A stretch of 43,103 bases of DNA from a virus. The position numbers and the translations under genes were made by a program. A model generated the notes under the pieces. That model ran no database searches, was not told the origin of the DNA, and saw nothing but the letters and a program-made list of their open reading frames with translations. The stretch is taken from positions 1-43,103 of the IMG/VR virus record IMGVR_UViG_3300049217_000031. One strand, written 5' to 3'. Below, in pieces: positions 31,078-43,103 of this stretch. The first letter of the stretch is position 1. Each line of letters begins with the position of its first letter.

Positions 31078-31778
31078 ACCATATCCGCCCTCGCAAAGAA
31101 GACGTGGCCGAGTGGGAAAAGCAGCCACCGGCCGCCGAAGGCGAGGGTATGTTCATCCCGCAGGCGGTGCTGCGGCGGCTGGATGAGGCGTCGCCGAAGA
31201 ACGCCCGCATGTGGATCAAGCGATGGATCAATAATGAGATAATGGCCCAGCCGATTGTCGGGCCAACAGAAAAGCCGCGCGGCGTCCGGCTGGCCGGGCC
31301 GGCGGACGAGGCCGCGCTGCTTGATCTCATGATGCGAGACGTGTCTGAAAATGCGATGGACATCGCCGCGCCATGCCCGGAGCGGATTATGGAACACATC
31401 CAGATGGCGACACGTCAGGGCAGGATGGGGCTGCTTCCGGTCATTGATGGTCCTGACGGCAAGCCAGTGGCCTGCATGCTCCTCGTGCCGTTTCAGTGGT
31501 GGTGGTCGAAGGCCTACTTCCTCCAGGAGGTGTGGAACTATGTGCACCCCGACCACCGCCTGTCGAAGCACGCTCATACGCTGATGCTTTGGGCGAGGTG
31601 GGCGTCCGACAATTTCAGCAACGAGTTCGGCCACCGGGTGTATCTCTTCCAGGGCGTGACCTCGAAGGACAGCGTCCGCGCAAAAGTGTCGTTCTACTCG
31701 CGGTTCACAAATTACATGGGCGCGCTCTTCATCTATCCGAACCCAAAAATTTCCTATACCCGGAGTATGAAGAAATGA
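31074..31778 (+). CDS. GNAT-type acetyltransferase-like protein
   Basis: 234 residues. RLAGPADEAALLDLMMRDVS, GLLPVIDGPDGKPVACMLLV and FLQEVWNYVHPDHRLSKHAH with ANL-like helix LMLWARWASDNF follow the GNAT order: motif D, central strands, motif A with V-x-P-x-x-R-x-x-x-[HK]-[AH]. Motif A is degenerate (VHPDHRLSKHA instead of V-x-P-x-[YF]-R-x-x-G-[IV]-G), as in other phage GNATs of virion clusters. The substrate is unknown. Confidence 0.65.
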   Translation: MNHIRPRKEDVAEWEKQPPAAEGEGMFIPQAVLRRLDEASPKNARMWIKRWINNEIMAQPIVGPTEKPRGVRLAGPADEAALLDLMMRDVSENAMDIAAPCPERIMEHIQMATRQGRMGLLPVIDGPDGKPVACMLLVPFQWWWSKAYFLQEVWNYVHPDHRLSKHAHTLMLWARWASDNFSNEFGHRVYLFQGVTSKDSVRAKVSFYSRFTNYMGALFIYPNPKISYTRSMKK

Positions 31779-34720
31779 GCGGCGGCGGGCAGTCCACTAC
31801 CACCTCGTCTTCCACCGTCCCGCAGACGTTTCTCAACGCCTACAATTCGACGGTCAATCGGGCGTCGAACGTCGCGAGCACGCCATACCAAGCCTACACG
31901 GGCAATCTGGTGGCGGGTTTTAACGGTCAGCAGACCCTGGCTCAAGCAGAGGTGCAGAACAACCAGACATCGTACCAGCCCCTGCTCAATCAGGCCGAAA
32001 GCAGCGTCGGATCGTCCACGAAGCCATTGTGGTCAAGCACTCAGCAGTTCAGCCCGTCGTCGATTTCGCAATACGAGTCGCCGTACCAGTCTCAGGTGAT
32101 CGGCGCGACCGAGGCACAGATCAACAACACGGACGCACAGCAGCAGGCCCAGCTTGCCGGCAACGCGGCCTCGTCTGGCGCGCTTGGTGGCGATCGAGAA
32201 GGCGTTGCTCAGGGCATCCTTGGTGGCCAGCAGGCCATAGCGAACAACAGCACCCTGGCCGGTCTGAACAACCAAAATTATTCCCAGGCGCTCGGCGAGT
32301 TCAATCAGCAGCAGGGCGCGCAGCTTGGCGCCAATGAGGCCAATTCCTGGCTCAATTCTCAGGCGGGTTACGCCTACGGCAACCTTGCGAACGAGGGCAA
32401 CAATCTGGCCATGGGCAACGCTTCGGCCCTGGCCGCGTCGGGGCTCACTGAGCAGCAGCAGGAGCAGGCTGGCCTGAACACGCAGTACGAGCAGTGGCAG
32501 GCGCAGCAAGCGTTTCCGTATCAGCAGACCGGGTGGCTCGCGAACATCACCGAGGGCATTGGGTCCAACGTCGGCGGATCAAGCACGACCACGCAGACCA
32601 ATAATGCGGGCGGCGGCAGGGTGCCGCGCGCGAACGGCGGCATCGTGCCGCAGCACTACGATGGCGGCGGCGGCATTCTTTCCGACATCCCGAACGTCTC
32701 GGCTTCCTACATACCTAGCATCAACGGTGCCGGCGGGGGCGGCCGCGGCGTCCCGAACGCGCCGAGCGCCCAGGTCCAGCAGAACCCCTGGGCAAATCCC
32801 GCGACAGACATCGGTGCTGTCAGCGGTGGCGTGTCGCTCTACAACAACCTGTTCGGCGGCGGTTCGTCCGCGGCGGCGACACCAGTAGGGTTCGGCAACG
32901 CCGGCATGGCCGCCGCAAGCACCGGTCAAATGGTTCCGGCTACTGACATAGGCTCGGCGGCGTTCGCGCCTGGCGTGGACACGCTGACCATGCCAGCGAA
33001 CGCCTCGGTGGCGGCGACCTCGCCGGGTTTCTTCGACACGGTCGGAAACGCGTTGACCGAAGGTGCCAGCAGCGCTGCGGATGCTATAGGCAGCGGCGCG
33101 GAGGCGATCGGTTCGGCGGCCGTCGATGCGGGCTCGTCCATCCTTTCCAGCCTAGGCGATGTCGCGTCATTCATCGCTGCCCTGTTCAACAAGGGCGGTG
33201 CGGTCGAGGCGCCCAGCGGCCACGCCGGCGGCGGCATCGTAGTGCCATTTCCGCAGCGTCGTGCGGCCGGCGGCGGGATCGGCAACGGCTCCGGGAATTA
33301 TGGCGAAATGCCCTACAGCATGCCGCCCCCGGTTCAGTTGCAATCCACTGGCACGGACGGCGGGAGTGGATACATACCCACCGGTTCGACGGCCGCGGCG
33401 CCAACATCTCGAGCCGCGGCTTCGCCTTATCAGAGCAGCAGCGGTGGCGGCCTCGGTGGCGCTTTGGATTCCTACGCGTCGAGCGGTGGTTTTGGCATAC
33501 TGCCGATGATGCTCTCGCGCGGCGGCCAAGCGGCGGGGCGCGCCGGCGGCGGCATTGTCATTCCTTTCCCCAAGCATTTTGACGATGGCGGTTCGACGCA
33601 ACCTGACGACGCGATGGTCAATCAGATGCGTGCGGACGAAGCGGCAGGCGAAGCCAGCGACTCGCAGGCAGCATCCGCTCCGCCGACCGCCTCAATCGCG
33701 GTGCCATCGGCGGACGGCGCGCCTGCGGCGACGTATCAGCCGCAGAAACCTGGCGGCTGGATCCCGATCTTGGCGGGCGTCGCGACAGCCGCGCTCGGTC
33801 GCCACCACGACGCCAGCCACAATGTGGCCGAGGGCGTTCTGGCCGGGCTTGGCACATACGGCAACGAGCAGAAGCAGTATCAGGAAGGGGCGCAGAAGGC
33901 TGCGACGATCCAGCAGGAGGCAAACCGCCTCGCCGACGACGCCGAGTTTCATCGCGAGCAGATTGCAAACGAGAATAAAAAAGCGGACGCGCAGGCAAGT
34001 TACTGGACTACCGAAGGCCAGAACAGCGCAGCGCGCGTAGCAAACGAGGCGAAATATCAGTCTGGCGAGCTTGGGTTGCGCGGGCAGGAGGTTTCCCAAC
34101 AAGGCGCCTACCAGCAGGGTGAGTTGGGTATTCGCGGGCAGGAGGCACAGACGCGGGCCGCCGCCGAGCAATCGCTGGAAAGCTACCGAAGCACGATGGC
34201 GGGGCGAGGAAATTACTCGCTGATCGGCACCACGCCAGATGGGCAACCAGTTTATGCCGACAAATTTTCCGGATCGCAGCAGACAGCGGACGGCAATCTC
34301 TACACTGGCATCGTCAGACCAACGGCGGCGCAGCAAGGGCGGCTCGACAATCAGCAACAGGGATTGGACATTCGCCGTCAGGCATTGGCGGTGGCGCACA
34401 ACGACCGTGAGCAAGCCTTGGCCGAGCACGGCAACGCCAGCACACTGTTCGCCGCCACGAACATCATGCGGGCCGACCCGACTGGAAAAACGACGCTGGA
34501 GCAGGCTTATACCCAGGCCGACGCTCACAACCCAAGCGGCGGCACGCAACCACAGCAGCCTGCGGAGCGACCAGCGCAACAGCCGCAGGCGGCAGCGCAA
34601 CAGCCCAAGGCAGCGGCGCAACCCGCAGGCGTTGGCCAATGGATGCAGAACAAGGCAACCGGCCAGTGGCGCAGTCCGACCGGCCAGATTTTTGACGCCA
34701 GCGGCAACCCAGTTCAATGA
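31775..34720 (+). CDS. Large virion protein, probably internal/ejection protein
   Basis: 981 residues, start ATG 31775 overlapping the previous stop. The Gln/Asn/Ser-rich N-terminal 280 residues (YTGNLVAGFNGQQTLAQAEV) form a helical region. The middle carries several GG-type motifs, NGGIVPQHYDGGGG, AGGGIVVPFPQR and AGGGIVIPFPKHFDDGG. A further coiled-coil-rich portion (residues about 700-900) ends in a Gln/Ala tail with a short folded tip (GQWMQNKATGQWRSPTGQIF). The position before the polyvalent gene and the composition suggest a protein injected with the DNA. Confidence 0.6.
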   Translation: MSGGGQSTTTSSSTVPQTFLNAYNSTVNRASNVASTPYQAYTGNLVAGFNGQQTLAQAEVQNNQTSYQPLLNQAESSVGSSTKPLWSSTQQFSPSSISQYESPYQSQVIGATEAQINNTDAQQQAQLAGNAASSGALGGDREGVAQGILGGQQAIANNSTLAGLNNQNYSQALGEFNQQQGAQLGANEANSWLNSQAGYAYGNLANEGNNLAMGNASALAASGLTEQQQEQAGLNTQYEQWQAQQAFPYQQTGWLANITEGIGSNVGGSSTTTQTNNAGGGRVPRANGGIVPQHYDGGGGILSDIPNVSASYIPSINGAGGGGRGVPNAPSAQVQQNPWANPATDIGAVSGGVSLYNNLFGGGSSAAATPVGFGNAGMAAASTGQMVPATDIGSAAFAPGVDTLTMPANASVAATSPGFFDTVGNALTEGASSAADAIGSGAEAIGSAAVDAGSSILSSLGDVASFIAALFNKGGAVEAPSGHAGGGIVVPFPQRRAAGGGIGNGSGNYGEMPYSMPPPVQLQSTGTDGGSGYIPTGSTAAAPTSRAAASPYQSSSGGGLGGALDSYASSGGFGILPMMLSRGGQAAGRAGGGIVIPFPKHFDDGGSTQPDDAMVNQMRADEAAGEASDSQAASAPPTASIAVPSADGAPAATYQPQKPGGWIPILAGVATAALGRHHDASHNVAEGVLAGLGTYGNEQKQYQEGAQKAATIQQEANRLADDAEFHREQIANENKKADAQASYWTTEGQNSAARVANEAKYQSGELGLRGQEVSQQGAYQQGELGIRGQEAQTRAAAEQSLESYRSTMAGRGNYSLIGTTPDGQPVYADKFSGSQQTADGNLYTGIVRPTAAQQGRLDNQQQGLDIRRQALAVAHNDREQALAEHGNASTLFAATNIMRADPTGKTTLEQAYTQADAHNPSGGTQPQQPAERPAQQPQAAAQQPKAAAQPAGVGQWMQNKATGQWRSPTGQIFDASGNPVQ

Positions 34721-37700
34721 CCCCGCCTGACGGCGATTGGGCGCCTGCGGCCGCACCTCCGCCGTGGGCCGCTCCGCAGGCGCAGCCGCAGCAGCAATCT
34801 AGCGACGGCTGGGCACCGGCCGCAGCCCCGCCACCGTGGGCACAGCCGCCGCCGACGCATGCGCGTTCTAGGACCGGCGGCCTTCCCCCAGCCGCGCTCG
34901 ACGACGGCAAATACGTGTCGGAAATTCCCGATCAGCCAGCGTCTTCCGCGCCTCCCGCACCTTCCGGACCCATCAATGCGACGGGCTTTGAAGACGCGGC
35001 GCCGGACGCGGACAAGGGCGGCCCATCGACCAGCACACAAACCCCAGGCCGCGTGGCGCAAGCCGTCATGAACGCTGGCAACCAAGGCCTGATCGCAGGC
35101 ACGGGGCAGGCCATCAAAGGCGCAGGCGAAGCCTATCGCGCTGCCACCGTGACGGCTGCCCAGCAGGATCTTGCAGCGCGAACGGACCCCAATGCCTTTG
35201 TCAGCGCGGGCGTAAACCCACGTGAACGTCAGTTTCGAGCGGCACAAGCCGCTTACCTGCAGCAGCAAGGGCCGGACGCCAACGCTGCTGCGGCTGCCAA
35301 TGATCAGGCAGCGATTGATGCCAGGACGCAGCCGGCGCCAGGCACCGAAACTGGGCAAGGGCTAATCAATTACGCGCAGAAAAACTACCCAGTGGACCCG
35401 GTGAATGCTGGCGTGGCCACGCGTGTCGCTGGCTTGATCGGCGGCGCCATTCCGGCGGTGGGCGCCGCAGCCGCTGGCACTGCTTTGGCCGGCCCGGTTG
35501 GCGGCGCTGCGGCCGGTGCCATGGTCATGTTTCCGCAGGCCTACGACACGACGTATCAGGATGCCGTCGCGAAGGGCGCCCCGCCCGACGTCGCCGACCA
35601 TGCGGCGACCATGTCCGCGGCGGCGCAGGCTGCGCTCATGTCCGCGCCGCTCGGCCGCTTGTTCCAGACGATTCCGGCACCGGTGCGGGATGGACTAGCG
35701 AAGACGCTGGTCAACCTGGGGCAGCACGGCGTCGAGTTTGGCTCGACCTCTGCCTTGTCGCAGTTCGCTGACAATTACGTGGCGAAGAACACGTACGATC
35801 CGCAGCGCACCTATACAGCCGGCGTCGCCGATGCTGCGCTCGAAGGCACGATCGCCGGCATCGTTGTGCCTGCAATGACGGGCGTAGCGCGGAATATCGG
35901 CGACCGTATCAGGCAGGGCACCGCGCCGGCCGCTTCTCCTGAATACACGCAGGCGATGGGCACGTTGCGCAAGCTCGCCGGGCAGCCTCCGTCTGACACG
36001 CCGCCGCAACGCCTGCCGCCGCCTGATGCCGACGCAGCGGCACCTACGCCGCCACCCGAGCCGCCGCCGACCCCGCCTGCCGCGCCCACAGAACCGCCGC
36101 AGGTGCCGGCCACGCCGACGCCGGCGCAGGCGGAGGCTGGCAACTACCAGAAGGTGCACAAGGCGGTCGGCGGTCTCGACATCGCTATTGAGACCGCCGC
36201 TGGCCAGCAACGCCAAGGTGTCGGGCCCGACGGCAAGCCTTGGTCCGTCACGATGCCGGTGGATTACGGCTACGTGAAACGCACCCAGGGCGCCGACGGC
36301 GATCCGGTGGACGTGTTTATGGCGCCCGTGCAGCCGCAGCTCGCGCGCAAGATGCCGGTCTATGTCGTGGATCAGATTGACCCGGCGACTGGCAAATTCG
36401 ACGAGCATAAGGCGTTGCTGGGCTTTCCATCGCAAGAAGCCGCTGTCGCTGCGTATCAGGGCTCTTTCTCGGACGGCTCGGGTGCCGCGCGCATGGGCGC
36501 GGTGAGCGTCATGCCGTTTAAGGATTTCCGGACCTGGGCCGAGAAAGGCGACACCTCCGAGCCGATCGTGTTCGGCAAAGACATACGACCCACGGGCGTG
36601 TCTCCTGGAAGTGGTGCGCAATCTGCGGCTGCCCAACCGAGCGCGGAGGCGCAACCTGCGCGGACACCAGATCAACCTGTTGTCAACGGTGAGAACGTTC
36701 CGGCACCGCAAAACGAGCCAGGAACAAGAACGGGTGTCATGCCCGTTTCCGAGTCTGCGCCTGCCGCCTTACCGCCGGCCGAGCCACCGCCCGCGCCTGC
36801 CGCAAAGACGCCCAAGCAGGCGCTCTACGATTTCAGAAAATCGGTCTCAGGCTGGTCATTCGCCAATCCGGCCGACATCCCGCAGATAGCGGCTGGCGCC
36901 CGATCGCGCTTGGCCGACCTGCCCGAGTCGGTGCGCCCTGAAGCCGCCGTCATCGTTGACAGCATGGACCGCGCCGCGGGCGCCGCACCGAAGCAACCCC
37001 CGCTGCAGCCCGCCGAGCCAGCCAAGGACGCCGCCGGCCGAACCATGATCGGCGTAAACCAAGACGGGCGCCCGGTGTGGGAAGACCCGAACGGCGTGCG
37101 GTCCATTCTCGACAACGGCATCAGGCAGACCGAACCGGTAGGCATGAGGCCCACCGAAGGCGGTATGCAGAACGTCGTTGACACGGCAAACCGCAGTCCC
37201 GATTTTCAAACCAAGGAGGAACTGGCCAGTGGAATTCGGCCCGCTGATAGCGGAAGCCCTGCGGCAGAGCGACCCCAGGGCGTTCAACCAGATAGCACGA
37301 TCGGGAACCCTCAACGCCTGGATGTCGGCCCGCCAGAAGGAAGCGGGGGCCAGGATGCGGGAGATTCTGGCGAAGGAGCCGCGCGACGCCGAAGGGCGCG
37401 TGTTAAACCAAAACGCAGTGAGGTGCGCGGAGGAGACGGTTCTGGCGGACCTGACGGACTTCCTGATGCCACTGCACCCGGAGCCGCCGAACGACCTGCC
37501 GATGCCGTCACCACGGAAGCAGCAGAGCGGGCAGCACCGTCCGTTGGCCAGAACCTCAACCTTGCCCCCGGCGAGATTGAAGAAGGTCGTGGCCTAGCCC
37601 AAAAGGCAAAGGACAATCTTGCCGCTATCGAAATCGCCAAGGCGATCATCGCCGACGGCCGCCTGCCTTCGCGCGCCGAGCAGGTGTCGCTCGCAAAATA

Positions 37701-40700
37701 CGTAGGCTGGGGCGGCCTCTCCATTGTATTTGCCAAACCCGATCCGACTGACACCGGCAGCTTGGCCAAGGTGGGCGCGCGCCTGCGCGAGATATTGACC
37801 AAGGAGGAATACGCACAGGCCAGAAGCAGCACCCAGTATGCCCACTACACGGCCGAAACAGTGGTGCGGGCCATGTGGGACACGATGGCCGCCATGGGTT
37901 TCGACGGCGGCATGGTGTTCGAGCCTGGCATGGGCGTGGGCAATTTCATCGGCATGATGCCGCCAGAGATCGCCTCCAAGGTGTCCTATCAGGGGCTCGA
38001 ACTCGACCCGCTCACGGCTCAGATCGCAAAGCTGATTTACCCCCAGGCCGGCATTCGTCAGGCGGATTTTTTCAAGACGCCAATACCGGAAGAGGCCTTC
38101 GACGTGGCGATCGGCAATCCGCCGTTCGCCGACTTGGTGGTGAAGTCCGACCCGAAATACTCGGCCAGGAAATTCCTGCTTCACGACTACTTTTTTGCCA
38201 AAAGCATGGACAGCGTTCGGCCGGGCGGCCTTCTGGGCTTCGTCACCAGCGCCGGCAGCATGAACAAGATGGATGCCGGCGCCCGCGAGTATCTGGCCCA
38301 GCGCGCCGAATTCCTGGGCGGCGTGCGGCTGCCGTCGAACGCATTCAAGCAGAATGCCGGCACCGAAGTGACCACCGACATCCTGTTTTTCAAACGGCGC
38401 CTCGAAGGCGTCGTGCCGCTTGCGCAGGCTGGCGATCTGGCTTGGACCCAGGTGGTGAAGCGCGATCTGCCAAACGCCGAGGGCGCCACGCAGGCAGGCA
38501 ACGTCAGCCGGTATTTCAGCGAGCATCCCGAGCAGGTGCTTGGGCAAGAGGGTTTTTTCGACAACCTCTACAAAGATCGATACGCCGTCCACGCTGCGTC
38601 CGGGCAGGACTTTGAGGCCGAGCTTCGCGCCGCATTGGGACGCCTGCCCAAAAACGTCATGACGCCGCCGATGACGGTCGGCGAGCGGGCGGCGCTGGAT
38701 TTCTCGTCCGGACAGAAGAAGGACGGCAGCTTCTACATCGCCCCCGTCACGAAGGGGCTGATGCAGTATCGCGGAGGCGCCGGCACGCCTGTGCAGCGCC
38801 GCGGCAAAGGGGTCGATGGCGGCTTTACCGCAGCCGACATGGAGAAGATCGCCGACCTCGTTCCAATCCGCGACGCGCTCCGAGAGGTGTTCCGAGCCGA
38901 TTTGGCAGACGATGCGCCAGCGGCGACCAAGGCCAGGAAGGCGCTCAACAGGTCGTATGATGCGTTCGTCGCCAAGCATGGGCCGATCAACAAGACGGAA
39001 GCCACGACGCGCCGGCCTAGCGTAATTCAGCAGGAGACGGCGCGGCGCAAAGCCTATGAGGAAGCCCGCGAGCTGGGGCTGCCGTGGGATCATGGCACGT
39101 TCAACCCAGAACCGTTCTACGCGAAGGATGCCGACAACAGCACGCTGGCCAAGGCCAGGCAGGCGGCGCGTGACGCAGCCGGCCAGAAGTTTGACGAAGG
39201 CACGTTCGACCCCGACGACATGCCTGACATCAAGATCGAGAAGCACCCGAACGCCGATCCGTTCCTCTCGGACCCGGAGAGCTACCGGCTGCGCTCCATC
39301 GAAAGCGTGGACAGCGAAACCGGCGCGGCTACCAAAAAGGAGATTTTCACCCGCAGCGTCATTACCCGGGAGAAGCCGCCCCAGATCAAATCGCCCGAAG
39401 ACGCAATCCTCTGGTCGCTGAACAAATTCGGCCGCCTCGACCTGGATGCGATGGCGCAGCAGATGGGGCAGCCGCGCAATGACCTGATCGCCTCCTTGGG
39501 CAACAAGGTGTTCCGTGTGCCGCAAGGCGGGGAACTGTATCAGGTCGCCGACGAGTATCTGTCCGGCGACGTGAAGACGAAGCTCGACATCGCGCGCCGG
39601 CAGGCCGACCGCGATCCTTCGTTTGAGCGCAACGTGGCGGCGCTTGAGCGCGTGCAGCCGGCACCCCTGCCGCCGACCGAAATCACCATGTCGCCAGGCA
39701 TGCCCTGGATACCCACGGCGACTATGACCGACTTCGCGCGTGAGGCCCTGAAAATGGGCGACATGCACATTGAGCACATTCCGACGCTCGGCCAGTGGAA
39801 GGTCGAGGCGCCGCAGTACATCAACGTGCGCCACGACTCGTCCGGCCTGACCAAGTTCGCGGTGCATCCGTATCTAAATGCGGCGGACCTTCTGCAGGCG
39901 GCCATGAACCGGGTGTGGCCGCGCTGCACCGACACGGTGCGCAAGCCAAGCGGCGGCACGGAAACGGTCTTCAACGCCGAGGCGACGCAGGCCGCCCATG
40001 ACCTGATCAACGAAATCAAGCAGGGCTTCGCCGACTGGCTCGACGCCAATCCGGCCCGCATGGATCAGTTGGCGGACCTCTACAACGACAAGATGAACCG
40101 GGACGTGCACCGGGTTTTCGACGGCAGCTATCTGACCACGCCTGACATCGCCGGCACGTGGAAATGGCGTCCGCATCAGACGCGGGTCGTGTCGCGCATC
40201 ATCCTGACCGGCAACACGTACATGGCGCATGCTGTGGGCGCGGGGAAAACCTCGGCAATGATTGGCGCCGGCATGGAAATGCGCCGCCTCGGCCTTGCTC
40301 GGAAGCCTATGTTTGCCGTGCCCAACCACATGCTCGGCCAGTTCACCAAGGAGTTCTACGAGCAGTATCCGACCGCCCGGATAGCCGTGGCGGACGAAGA
40401 ACGCTTCCACACGCACACCCGGCGCCAGTTTGTGGCGAACGTCGCGCAGGATGACCTGGACGCCGTGATCATCACGCACTCAGGTTTTGGCCACATTCCG
40501 ATCAGCGACGATTTTCAGGATGGCCTGATCCGAGAGGAAATCGAAAACATCACCGACGCCCTAGCAGGCTTGGATAAGAAAGGGGACGATCGCTTCACCG
40601 TCAAACAACTTGAGGCGATGAAGAAGAAACTTGAAGAAAAGCTGGGCAAGCGCAGCGATCGCAAAGATCAGGCCCTGACGTTTGAGCAAATGGGCGTCGA

Positions 40701-43103
40701 TTTCCTCTTCGTCGATGAGGCGCATCTGTTCCGCAAGCTGTCCTTCGCGACGCAGCTTGGCAACATGAAGGGCATCACGTCGCAGGGTTCAGAAATGGCG
40801 TGGGACCTCTACACGAAGGTCCAATACCTGGAGAGCAAAAACCCTGGCCGCTCTTTGGTTCTGGCGTCTGGCACGCCGATCACCAACACGATGGGTGAAC
40901 TCTATTCGATCAGCCGCTACATCCAACCGCAGGCGCTGGCGGCGCGCGGCCTGTCGCACTTCGACTCCTGGGCGCAGAATTTTGGCGACACGGGCACCGA
41001 ATTGGAGCCGCAGCCGGACGGCTCTTACAAGCAGGTAACTCGCTTTAATAAATTCGTAAACGTTTTTGAACTTTACAAAATGGTCGGCGCGCAGATGGAC
41101 ATCGTGACGCCGCACGAGCTGGGGCAGTACGTCGTCAGGCCGAAGTTCAAGACCGGCGAGCGCATGCTGACCAAGGCGCCCCTTACGCCCGAACTGGCCA
41201 ACTATCGAACCGAACTTGCTGGCCGCATGAAGGCCATTGCCGAGCGGAAAGGGCCGCCCGAGCCAGGCGACGACATCATCCTGTCCGTGATCAACGACGG
41301 GCGCCATGCGGCGCTCGACCCGCGCTTCGTCATGACGGTGCCAAGCGTGCCGACCAGCAAGCTGAACATGGCTCTTAATAACGTCTTCCGAATCTGGAAG
41401 AAGGGCAAAAACACGCAGTTCTATGACCCTGGCAGCAATTACAAAGAGAAGTCGTTTCGCGGACCCTCTACCCAGATGATCTTCTGCAATCTGGGCGTGA
41501 ACGGACGCGGCCCGAACGGCTTTTCTGCCTACCGCTGGATCAAGGCCGAACTCGCCAAGCGCGGCATTCCCGAGGCAGAGGTGGCCTTTATCGGCGACTT
41601 CAAGAACGCCCTGCAGCGGCAGGCCCTGTTCAACGACATGAACGAAGGGCGCGTTCGCATTCTGGTCGGCTCTGTGCAGAAGATGGGCACCGGCGTGAAC
41701 GCCCAGCGCCGACTGGCCGCCCTGCATAACCTGGACCCGCTGTGGTTTCCATCAGACGATGAGCAGCGGGTAGGGCGCATCCTTCGGCAGGGCAACCACA
41801 ACCCGGAAATTGAGGTGCACGACTACACGACCGAGGACACATACGACGCCACCATGTGGGGGATGATGGGGCGCAAAGGCCGCTTCATTGAGCAGTTCTT
41901 CCGCGGCGACCCGGAATTGCGGGACATGGAGGACCTCGGCGAGGCCAGCATGTACGAGCAGGCAGCCGCCATGACGATGACCGACCCGCGGGCCATGCAC
42001 CTCACGCAGTTCAAGCAGGATCTGCAAAAAGCCGAGCGGCGGCTGTCGGCCCACGAGCGCAAGCAGTCCGACATGAAAAACCAAGCCCAATCTTGGCTTG
42101 GAACCGCCGCAAGGCTTGAGGCGCGCATACCGCACATGGAGGCAGACATTGCCCGCCGCGTGGATACGAAAGGCGACGCCTTCCGCATGGCCGTGGACGG
42201 CAAGCTTTTTGAGAAGCGCAAGGAAGCGGCCGAGGCGCTGTCGGCCGTCATCAACGAGAAGTCCGCGGCGTGGCCGGAAAAGCAGGACGTGCCGATCGGC
42301 GAGATTGGCGGCTTTACCCTGGTCGGAACGAAGCACCTTCGAAAAAACGGCAATCCGGAATTGGACTTCGCGCTCAAGTTGTCAGGCGGCCGCGAAGTGA
42401 CGGTGCGCGGCGAAGGCACTGCGGCCGGGCTGATCCAGTCGGCCGAGCGCACGCTGCGTGACTTCGAAGGTGAGCTGGGCGTGGCCAAGGAAAGCGCCGC
42501 AGCATATCGCCAGCAGGCAGAGGAATTAAGGCCGCTGATCGGGCAGCCGTTCAAAGGCCACGAGCAGATCCGCGATCTCCGTCAGAAAGTGCGCGACCTG
42601 TCGGCCGAGTTGAAAGCCGAGTCCGACGTCAAGCCCATGCAGGTCGGCGCGGTCGAGCCAGAGGACGATACCAGAGAAAGCCGTCGCGAAGGAGAGGGCG
42701 CCCAGGGCTCGACCGGCCCGCGCGATCAGATCGCCGACCTGATGCACTCAATCATGCGCTACTCGGGACTGCCTGAGAGTGTGGGCGTCAAACTGGTGGA
42801 CAACCTGCGCAAGGGCGGCGCGGACGCGGCCTACGCCAAAAGGCTGATCACGTTCGCCATGGACACGCCGCCCGACCAAGTTCCGGCCAAGCTGTTCCAT
42901 GAGGTCGTGCACGCCCTGCTGGACCCGTCCCTGGGGCTGTTGACCGCTCAGGAGAGGCAGGCGCTGAACGTGGGCGCGGATCGCTTCCTACGCACGCCAG
43001 CGAACCGAACTGCCATAGAGCGGGCGTACGGCACCAATGCGGCGACCGTGCGCGAAGAAGCCATTGCCCGTCTCTCCGAACGTGCGCTGGCGAACGCCAT
43101 GAA
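34717..43103 (+). CDS. Giant polyvalent protein: pyrophosphatase-like, methyltransferase, SNF2 helicase, HExxH (open at right edge)
   Basis: The frame is open for at least 2795 codons from ATG 34717 and runs off the edge. Order: Pro/Ala-rich N-terminus; Gly/Ala hydrophobic segment (about 233-272); pyrophosphatase-like domain (about 475-620, VTMPVDYGYVKRTQGADGDP); linker; N6-adenine methyltransferase with EPGMGVGN (1069-1076) and NPPF (1134-1137); helicase with GAGKT (1841-1845), DEAH (2000-2003), SGTP (2051-2054) and QRVGRILRQ (2350-2358); coiled coil; HEVVH (2728-2732), a metallopeptidase-like site. Methyltransferase plus SNF2 resembles P1 DarB. The linker of residues about 838-950 overlaps another gene (37229-37597), so this may be two proteins, of 34717 to about 37230 and from about 37570 on. 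Confidence 0.8.
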   Translation, partial: MTPPDGDWAPAAAPPPWAAPQAQPQQQSSDGWAPAAAPPPWAQPPPTHARSRTGGLPPAALDDGKYVSEIPDQPASSAPPAPSGPINATGFEDAAPDADKGGPSTSTQTPGRVAQAVMNAGNQGLIAGTGQAIKGAGEAYRAATVTAAQQDLAARTDPNAFVSAGVNPRERQFRAAQAAYLQQQGPDANAAAAANDQAAIDARTQPAPGTETGQGLINYAQKNYPVDPVNAGVATRVAGLIGGAIPAVGAAAAGTALAGPVGGAAAGAMVMFPQAYDTTYQDAVAKGAPPDVADHAATMSAAAQAALMSAPLGRLFQTIPAPVRDGLAKTLVNLGQHGVEFGSTSALSQFADNYVAKNTYDPQRTYTAGVADAALEGTIAGIVVPAMTGVARNIGDRIRQGTAPAASPEYTQAMGTLRKLAGQPPSDTPPQRLPPPDADAAAPTPPPEPPPTPPAAPTEPPQVPATPTPAQAEAGNYQKVHKAVGGLDIAIETAAGQQRQGVGPDGKPWSVTMPVDYGYVKRTQGADGDPVDVFMAPVQPQLARKMPVYVVDQIDPATGKFDEHKALLGFPSQEAAVAAYQGSFSDGSGAARMGAVSVMPFKDFRTWAEKGDTSEPIVFGKDIRPTGVSPGSGAQSAAAQPSAEAQPARTPDQPVVNGENVPAPQNEPGTRTGVMPVSESAPAALPPAEPPPAPAAKTPKQALYDFRKSVSGWSFANPADIPQIAAGARSRLADLPESVRPEAAVIVDSMDRAAGAAPKQPPLQPAEPAKDAAGRTMIGVNQDGRPVWEDPNGVRSILDNGIRQTEPVGMRPTEGGMQNVVDTANRSPDFQTKEELASGIRPADSGSPAAERPQGVQPDSTIGNPQRLDVGPPEGSGGQDAGDSGEGAARRRRARVKPKRSEVRGGDGSGGPDGLPDATAPGAAERPADAVTTEAAERAAPSVGQNLNLAPGEIEEGRGLAQKAKDNLAAIEIAKAIIADGRLPSRAEQVSLAKYVGWGGLSIVFAKPDPTDTGSLAKVGARLREILTKEEYAQARSSTQYAHYTAETVVRAMWDTMAAMGFDGGMVFEPGMGVGNFIGMMPPEIASKVSYQGLELDPLTAQIAKLIYPQAGIRQADFFKTPIPEEAFDVAIGNPPFADLVVKSDPKYSARKFLLHDYFFAKSMDSVRPGGLLGFVTSAGSMNKMDAGAREYLAQRAEFLGGVRLPSNAFKQNAGTEVTTDILFFKRRLEGVVPLAQAGDLAWTQVVKRDLPNAEGATQAGNVSRYFSEHPEQVLGQEGFFDNLYKDRYAVHAASGQDFEAELRAALGRLPKNVMTPPMTVGERAALDFSSGQKKDGSFYIAPVTKGLMQYRGGAGTPVQRRGKGVDGGFTAADMEKIADLVPIRDALREVFRADLADDAPAATKARKALNRSYDAFVAKHGPINKTEATTRRPSVIQQETARRKAYEEARELGLPWDHGTFNPEPFYAKDADNSTLAKARQAARDAAGQKFDEGTFDPDDMPDIKIEKHPNADPFLSDPESYRLRSIESVDSETGAATKKEIFTRSVITREKPPQIKSPEDAILWSLNKFGRLDLDAMAQQMGQPRNDLIASLGNKVFRVPQGGELYQVADEYLSGDVKTKLDIARRQADRDPSFERNVAALERVQPAPLPPTEITMSPGMPWIPTATMTDFAREALKMGDMHIEHIPTLGQWKVEAPQYINVRHDSSGLTKFAVHPYLNAADLLQAAMNRVWPRCTDTVRKPSGGTETVFNAEATQAAHDLINEIKQGFADWLDANPARMDQLADLYNDKMNRDVHRVFDGSYLTTPDIAGTWKWRPHQTRVVSRIILTGNTYMAHAVGAGKTSAMIGAGMEMRRLGLARKPMFAVPNHMLGQFTKEFYEQYPTARIAVADEERFHTHTRRQFVANVAQDDLDAVIITHSGFGHIPISDDFQDGLIREEIENITDALAGLDKKGDDRFTVKQLEAMKKKLEEKLGKRSDRKDQALTFEQMGVDFLFVDEAHLFRKLSFATQLGNMKGITSQGSEMAWDLYTKVQYLESKNPGRSLVLASGTPITNTMGELYSISRYIQPQALAARGLSHFDSWAQNFGDTGTELEPQPDGSYKQVTRFNKFVNVFELYKMVGAQMDIVTPHELGQYVVRPKFKTGERMLTKAPLTPELANYRTELAGRMKAIAERKGPPEPGDDIILSVINDGRHAALDPRFVMTVPSVPTSKLNMALNNVFRIWKKGKNTQFYDPGSNYKEKSFRGPSTQMIFCNLGVNGRGPNGFSAYRWIKAELAKRGIPEAEVAFIGDFKNALQRQALFNDMNEGRVRILVGSVQKMGTGVNAQRRLAALHNLDPLWFPSDDEQRVGRILRQGNHNPEIEVHDYTTEDTYDATMWGMMGRKGRFIEQFFRGDPELRDMEDLGEASMYEQAAAMTMTDPRAMHLTQFKQDLQKAERRLSAHERKQSDMKNQAQSWLGTAARLEARIPHMEADIARRVDTKGDAFRMAVDGKLFEKRKEAAEALSAVINEKSAAWPEKQDVPIGEIGGFTLVGTKHLRKNGNPELDFALKLSGGREVTVRGEGTAAGLIQSAERTLRDFEGELGVAKESAAAYRQQAEELRPLIGQPFKGHEQIRDLRQKVRDLSAELKAESDVKPMQVGAVEPEDDTRESRREGEGAQGSTGPRDQIADLMHSIMRYSGLPESVGVKLVDNLRKGGADAAYAKRLITFAMDTPPDQVPAKLFHEVVHALLDPSLGLLTAQERQALNVGADRFLRTPANRTAIERAYGTNAATVREEAIARLSERALANAM
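37229..37597 (+). CDS. Small gene embedded inside the polyvalent frame
   Basis: GTG 37229 follows AAGGAGG (37213-37219) by 9 nt, in the +2 frame relative to the giant ORF. The 122-residue product begins VEFGPLIAEALRQSDPRAFN and then reads QIARSGTLNAWMSARQKEAG, an ordinary helical protein with Trp and hydrophobic positions. Counting by hand, 48 of the first 60 codons end in G or C, against 30 of 60 in the giant frame over the same bases and 33 of 40 there just upstream. So selection seems to favour this inner frame. The last 35 residues are basic and less protein-like. Function unknown. Confidence 0.65.
   Translation: MEFGPLIAEALRQSDPRAFNQIARSGTLNAWMSARQKEAGARMREILAKEPRDAEGRVLNQNAVRCAEETVLADLTDFLMPLHPEPPNDLPMPSPRKQQSGQHRPLARTSTLPPARLKKVVA

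Follow-up and report, generated by a model that had tools for sequence, protein, structure and literature searches.

The giant gene of the window and the gene nested in it

The window, that is, the whole stretch of viral DNA analysed here (43,103 bases), encodes a large terminase, a portal, and a major head protein, together with a giant gene that is still open at the window end. The following features of this gene and its surroundings were annotated.

31496..34720, plus strand: upstream ORF with a match to DNA ejection proteins (PHROG 4287, E 9e-16)
34717..43101, plus strand: outer giant gene, polyvalent/DarB-like; ATG at 34717, 2795 codons seen, no stop before the window end
36124..36540, plus strand: outer-protein InPase domain (PF18823), preceding the nested gene (Pfam E 5e-44, 149.9 bits)
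37213..37219, plus strand: Shine-Dalgarno motif AAGGAGG, read in the sequence, with a 9-nt spacer to the nested GTG
37229..37597, plus strand: putative nested tnpV-like gene; GTG start, TAG stop at 37595-37597, 122 codons
37231..37596, plus strand: overprinted outer stretch, a low-complexity linker of G/A/R/E/P residues that directly precedes the methylase domain (from the translation and a conservation comparison)
38062..38304, plus strand: outer-protein region with the Eco57I-type N6 methylase motif (Pfam PF07669, 28.4 bits; cut-off, 25.3)
40162..41793, plus strand: helicase region (ResIII and Helicase_C) of the outer protein (Pfam 20.3 and 20.4 bits, just under the curated cut-offs)

With the InPase and methylase domains scoring above their cut-offs, the outer protein combines several conflict-related domains in one large polypeptide, as is characteristic of polyvalent/DarB-like proteins, and its InPase, N6-methylase, and helicase regions are likewise found in the proteins described by Iyer et al. 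2017 (PMC5512222). The homologous methylase region begins at about position 37600, and its relatives are DarB-like proteins of Burkholderia, Erwinia, Pseudomonas, Vibrio, Klebsiella, Agrobacterium, and other phages, the close named relatives being annotated as "DarB-like antirestriction." One such protein is virion associated: the 4515-amino-acid DarB-like protein of Burkholderia phage JC1 was detected in virions with 51 unique peptides (PMC9144972), and the nested gene is present in DC1 and BcepIL02, which are close relatives of JC1. Only by analogy with JC1 gp69 (PMC9144972), and in view of the adjoining ejection-protein ORF, might the outer protein of the window also be packaged in the virion and injected. 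The stop codon of the ejection-protein-like ORF overlaps the ATG of the outer gene in the sequence ATGA (34717-34720), which suggests translational coupling of the two.

The first-pass annotation had pointed out, inside the polyvalent gene, a GTG with AAGGAGG that opens a 122-codon frame, and its coordinates, its spacer, and its position in the +1 frame relative to the open outer frame (34717..43101) were all recovered. The GC content at third codon positions (GC3) is 101/122 in the inner frame and 60/121 in the outer frame over the same bases, with outer-frame values of 301/409 upstream and 316/400 downstream of the nested gene. Over three 60-base blocks (37261-37440), our recount gave 49/60 for the inner and 31/60 for the outer frame, in good agreement with the earlier hand count (48/60 and 30/60). 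When the outer protein of the window was recoded with random synonymous codons, the inner frame stayed open in 0.6% of the trials; when the inner protein was recoded at random, the outer frame stayed open in 3.5%.

Comparison of the window inner protein with its nearest relatives gave alignment z values of 14.4, 13.6, and 7.6, whereas the outer linker gave only 1.6, 2.2, and 1.3 against the same relatives; in a more distant relative of the window group (L005), the similarity was equal in both frames (z 4.7 and 4.8). The earlier description of the outer product as a low-complexity linker is borne out by its poor conservation among the nearest relatives, and the small gene appears to be real, nested, and read in the more strongly constrained frame, as had been proposed. 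A conserved linker over an unconserved inner protein had been named as grounds for discarding the gene, and the nearest relatives show the opposite.

Relatives of the nested gene and their distribution

Used alone as the query, the inner protein of the window had no match in phages or in viral or genome contigs, and neither PHROGs nor NCBIfam offered a usable family for it. Relatives were reached through the outer gene first and then by family profile, a single mixed family alignment being too divergent to serve as a search query. A tblastn search with the inner protein on the outer-gene relatives gave matches with E values of 4e-9 and 1e-8 as well as weaker ones; they lie just upstream of the methylase domain, and the inner frame is at +1 inside a continuous outer frame. 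By family profile, the nested gene was also identified in named phages, none of which has a separate gene annotated there, and a viral scan with the nested family as the sole query yielded 66 loci. The homologues total 88 loci, corresponding to 75 distinct sequences, with 80 ATG and 8 GTG starts, so the possibility that the 122-residue protein has no homologue anywhere can be set aside. At all methylase-bearing loci (87/87), the nested gene is located upstream of the methylase domain, in the +1 phase, and inside an open outer frame; because the phase is the same in all of them, a sequencing error that creates the outer read-through, another early concern, is excluded. The one locus without a methylase (L112) resembles a prophage remnant.

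In Sinorhizobium phage PBC5 (L093 and L124), the outer frame is interrupted before it reaches the nested gene, and the annotated orf33 ends in the nested protein. A match of the inner family to PHROG 938, "endolysin," was rejected as one to a profile tail fitting PBC5 orf33, which seems to be the source of that tail. The CDSs annotated in this region of Pseudomonas phage Itty13 (L090) lie on the other strand from the real giant ORF, and in Pseudomonas phage 8P (L095:3130-3399) the expected site holds a +1 ORF, the product of which has diverged beyond the reach of the family profiles. Three helicase genes in public records (L176, L178, and L087) seem to have been given starts that are too far downstream, for which the nested gene is probably responsible.

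As judged from sequence profiles, the nested protein of the window is a distant relative of the transposon protein TnpV (PF14198), which is known from Tn4451-type elements. The window subfamily aligned with canonical TnpV over 68 columns (hhalign probability, 93.6%; E 2e-7). The window protein by itself reached 14 bits (E 0.05) against the Pfam TnpV model, which is under the curated cut-off of 27 bits, and for this reason it is named TnpV-related here and not filed as a TnpV member. The Pfam model matched 9 of the 21 nested-family members examined, weakly, and two nested relatives scored above the cut-off (L181, 144.8 bits; L184, 29 bits), so that bona fide TnpV members are nested in the same manner as the window gene. 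The window protein is predicted to consist of a four-helix domain (residues 4 to 77; helices 4-14, 16-25, 28-47, and 61-77) followed by a disordered tail. The predicted helices of TnpV (26-38, 40-49, 52-78, and 89-112) have the same order, and the S/G-x-L and AEE-hydrophobic motifs are also shared, whereas the N-terminal hairpin of TnpV is absent from the window protein. A Foldseek search of both predicted models against the PDB and viral models gave no significant match, and sequence-search matches of the inner protein in the PDB, mostly to designed helical proteins, were put down to composition. The other large phage subfamily has a weaker link (hhalign E 5e-4 to TnpV and 1e-3 to the window group), which its place, phase, and length support.

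The nested pair, as read from the sequences, spans proteobacterial phages and elements of Clostridia, Listeria, Enterococcus, and actinobacteria. A canonical TnpV is nested in the +1 phase in a Subdoligranulum plasmid (L181), as is the TnpV of a Listeria plasmid (L184), and an Enterococcus faecalis plasmid has a nested TnpV too. In a genome scan with TnpV, 14 Clostridia loci had a methylase-helicase, and in all of them (14/14) TnpV was in the +1 phase, with the outer frame containing it in 13. At the TnpV loci without a methylase, the outer-type frame was closed. Further TnpV copies were cleanly bimodal in this respect, and both kinds were found within one genome; classical TnpV stands alone beside a serine recombinase, whereas the window gene is nested. 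Two of the Clostridia elements are irregular: in L188, the outer frame stops soon after TnpV, and in L195 it is broken inside TnpV, TnpV being intact in both.

On actinobacterial plasmids, the nested gene is either annotated as TnpV next to a shortened helicase or hidden in an annotated long helicase, and Gordonia has a similar arrangement (profile E 4e-4). The arrangement is probably also present in Campylobacter, where a plasmid of 28% GC has a 159-codon ORF at the matching place and phase; its family similarity is weak (E 0.23), and both frames are open against the odds. A short +1 ORF occurs at the matching place in a Parabacteroides plasmid (L173:4046-4213), without recognisable family similarity. 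No nested gene was present in the Lactococcus garvieae Pa-2, Vagococcus, Rhizobium, Aeromonas, and Escherichia coli plasmids examined; since all of these have the methylase-helicase, the nested gene is not essential to it everywhere.

Coding in both frames

A Shine-Dalgarno motif of at least 4 nt precedes 72 of the 75 distinct nested starts, compared with 6.9% of 4918 control starts matched for frame and codon, although the first figure is somewhat flattered because the nested starts were picked partly by this motif among nearby candidates. The substitution pattern was followed in a cluster of 10 sequences. The difference at outer third positions was 0.30 to 0.44 across the 100 codons before the nested start (0.37 just before it), fell to 0.014 in the first 25 nested codons and 0.07 to 0.16 over the remainder, and returned to 0.36 to 0.53 just after the nested stop. 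Within the nested gene, change was fastest at outer position 1, which is the wobble position of the inner frame, and the same phase reversal was seen across 61 sequences. The inner 4-fold sites also changed less than those of the flanks (0.178 versus 0.366), as was the case in 20/20 pairs of the 10 to 16% bin, the pairs not being independent. By the synonymous-site analysis called for at the outset, both frames are constrained and under purifying selection in the relatives, and the phase switches at the nested start and stop. The nearest relative of the window, with 54% identity in the methylase-helicase region, is too diverged for this purpose, and the substitution tests cover the lineages of the relatives.

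That the inner ORF is merely a chance frame in GC-rich DNA can practically be dismissed. At many single loci, about half of the outer-protein recodings do leave the inner frame open, but the homology, the phase, the Shine-Dalgarno motifs, the substitution pattern, and the independent TnpV relatives are all contrary to such a reading.

The reverse possibility is that the inner gene alone is real, the outer frame being open by chance and the giant gene being two genes with the small gene between them. The linker is indeed poorly conserved and atypical in GC3 (0.39), and several plasmid annotations start the helicase after the nested gene. However, when the inner protein was kept and randomly recoded, the outer frame was open with a median probability of only 0.02, and the joint probability over 17 clusters, used because related sequences are not independent, was 10^-26 for a frame that is open in the same phase in every family; the third frame was never open at these loci. 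Stand-alone TnpV genes had two to seven stops in the -1 frame (13 genes), whereas nested TnpV genes had none in this frame, which is the outer one (12/12), and the third frame had many stops in both kinds. In the Campylobacter plasmid, at 28% GC, 159 codons are kept open (P < 1/4000), and the outer frame evolves as coding sequence right up to and right after the nested gene. We therefore consider a chance-open outer frame very improbable.

Slightly less credit still is given to ribosomal frameshifting, by which the upstream half of the outer protein would gain a TnpV-like C terminus with no internal initiation. Such a route would fit the annotated upstream ORF of PBC5, which continues in frame into the nested sequence, and the inner frames of some loci that are open well upstream of the start. 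The PBC5 case, though, has the appearance of a frame break in a single old record. In 24 of the 75 sequences, the inner frame has a stop within the 15 codons preceding the start, and in several within 2 codons; the start codon is conserved, has a Shine-Dalgarno motif, and marks the onset of the inner coding-phase signal. The window locus is thus very probably a dual-coding nested gene pair.

Comparison with known systems, possible role, and origin of the pair

In the case of the Rz/Rz1 lysis genes, a larger phage gene encloses, in its +1 frame, a small gene with its own start. The window pair has the same layout with unrelated proteins, and it differs in that its outer gene is giant, that the pair is found across phyla and across types of element, and that the overprinted newcomer would be part of the large gene. 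To our knowledge, long same-strand nested genes have rarely been demonstrated in bacteria and dsDNA phages, and the known ones are mostly young and narrow in distribution. The present pair appears to be old, broad, and mostly unannotated, annotation either omitting the small gene or cutting the large one short. Many unrelated phages, plasmids, and integrated elements have the nested gene at the same place and in the same frame, in most cases without annotation, which points to an ancient, selected protein that has been overlooked. It could offer a new handle on the working of giant anti-restriction proteins, and the pair would be an unusually clean case for dual-frame selection, the stand-alone TnpV genes serving as a built-in control. 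We found no paper in the open-access literature on a nested gene in these polyvalent/DarB-like proteins, and a term search of Iyer et al. 2017 (PMC5512222) returned no mention of TnpV or of overlapping genes.

At the window locus, two proteins would be made from one set of bases. Ribosomes in the outer frame would produce one giant polyvalent protein with the InPase, methylase, and helicase, and other ribosomes would start at the internal Shine-Dalgarno motif and GTG to produce the 122-residue, mostly helical tnpV-like protein in the +1 frame. Because the association with the methylase-helicase recurs, we tentatively suggest, as the likeliest role, that the nested protein may be a small cytoplasmic partner of the methylase-helicase part, the same mRNA keeping the two together. 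With similar reserve, it might be seen as a dedicated, hitherto unseen subunit or regulator of a widespread methylase-helicase anti-restriction family, from Clostridia elements to proteobacterial phages, kept in step by being encoded inside the gene of its partner. The idea is weakened by the existence of TnpV without a methylase-helicase, and stand-alone TnpV genes together with methylase-helicases that have no nested gene argue against strict dependence. The TnpV of Tn4451 has been postulated to be Xis-like (PMC3158075), a role that gains no support here, given that the predicted core is mostly helical and matched no solved fold.

The first-pass annotation had also proposed a history, in which the loss of a stop joined three separate genes (pyrophosphatase-like, small, and methyltransferase-helicase) into one in this lineage. 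One element of it stands: the existence of stand-alone TnpV genes in which the -1 frame is closed makes the small gene look older than the linker. Some relatives of the small gene stand alone, and its product is predicted to fold, whereas the linker is rich in G, A, R, and E; the outer linker is thus probably the newcomer, overprinted on the older small gene. The fusion itself is improbable. The stand-alone tnpV genes are in keeping with it, and the upstream domains could in principle be separate proteins, but no relative with three separate genes was found, and the nested +1 layout is already present, in identical phase, in distant groups. The domain upstream of the nested gene varies, being InPase in the window and ArdC-N in Listeria and, weakly, in Clostridia. 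On some plasmids, those of Paenarthrobacter/Arthrobacter, Gordonia, and Campylobacter, no domain precedes the nested gene, and just 70 to 97 nt separate its start from the point where the outer frame begins.

It is more economical to suppose that a tnpV-like gene was there first, that the methylase-helicase gene was extended over it at the 5' end, and that the N-terminal domains came later. The linker would have been overprinted as the 5' part was extended over the small gene, and the nested pair would then have moved as one unit among plasmids, integrated elements, and phages. The distances of the nested gene and the methylase were correlated with a Mantel r of 0.87, as expected if the two move as a unit.
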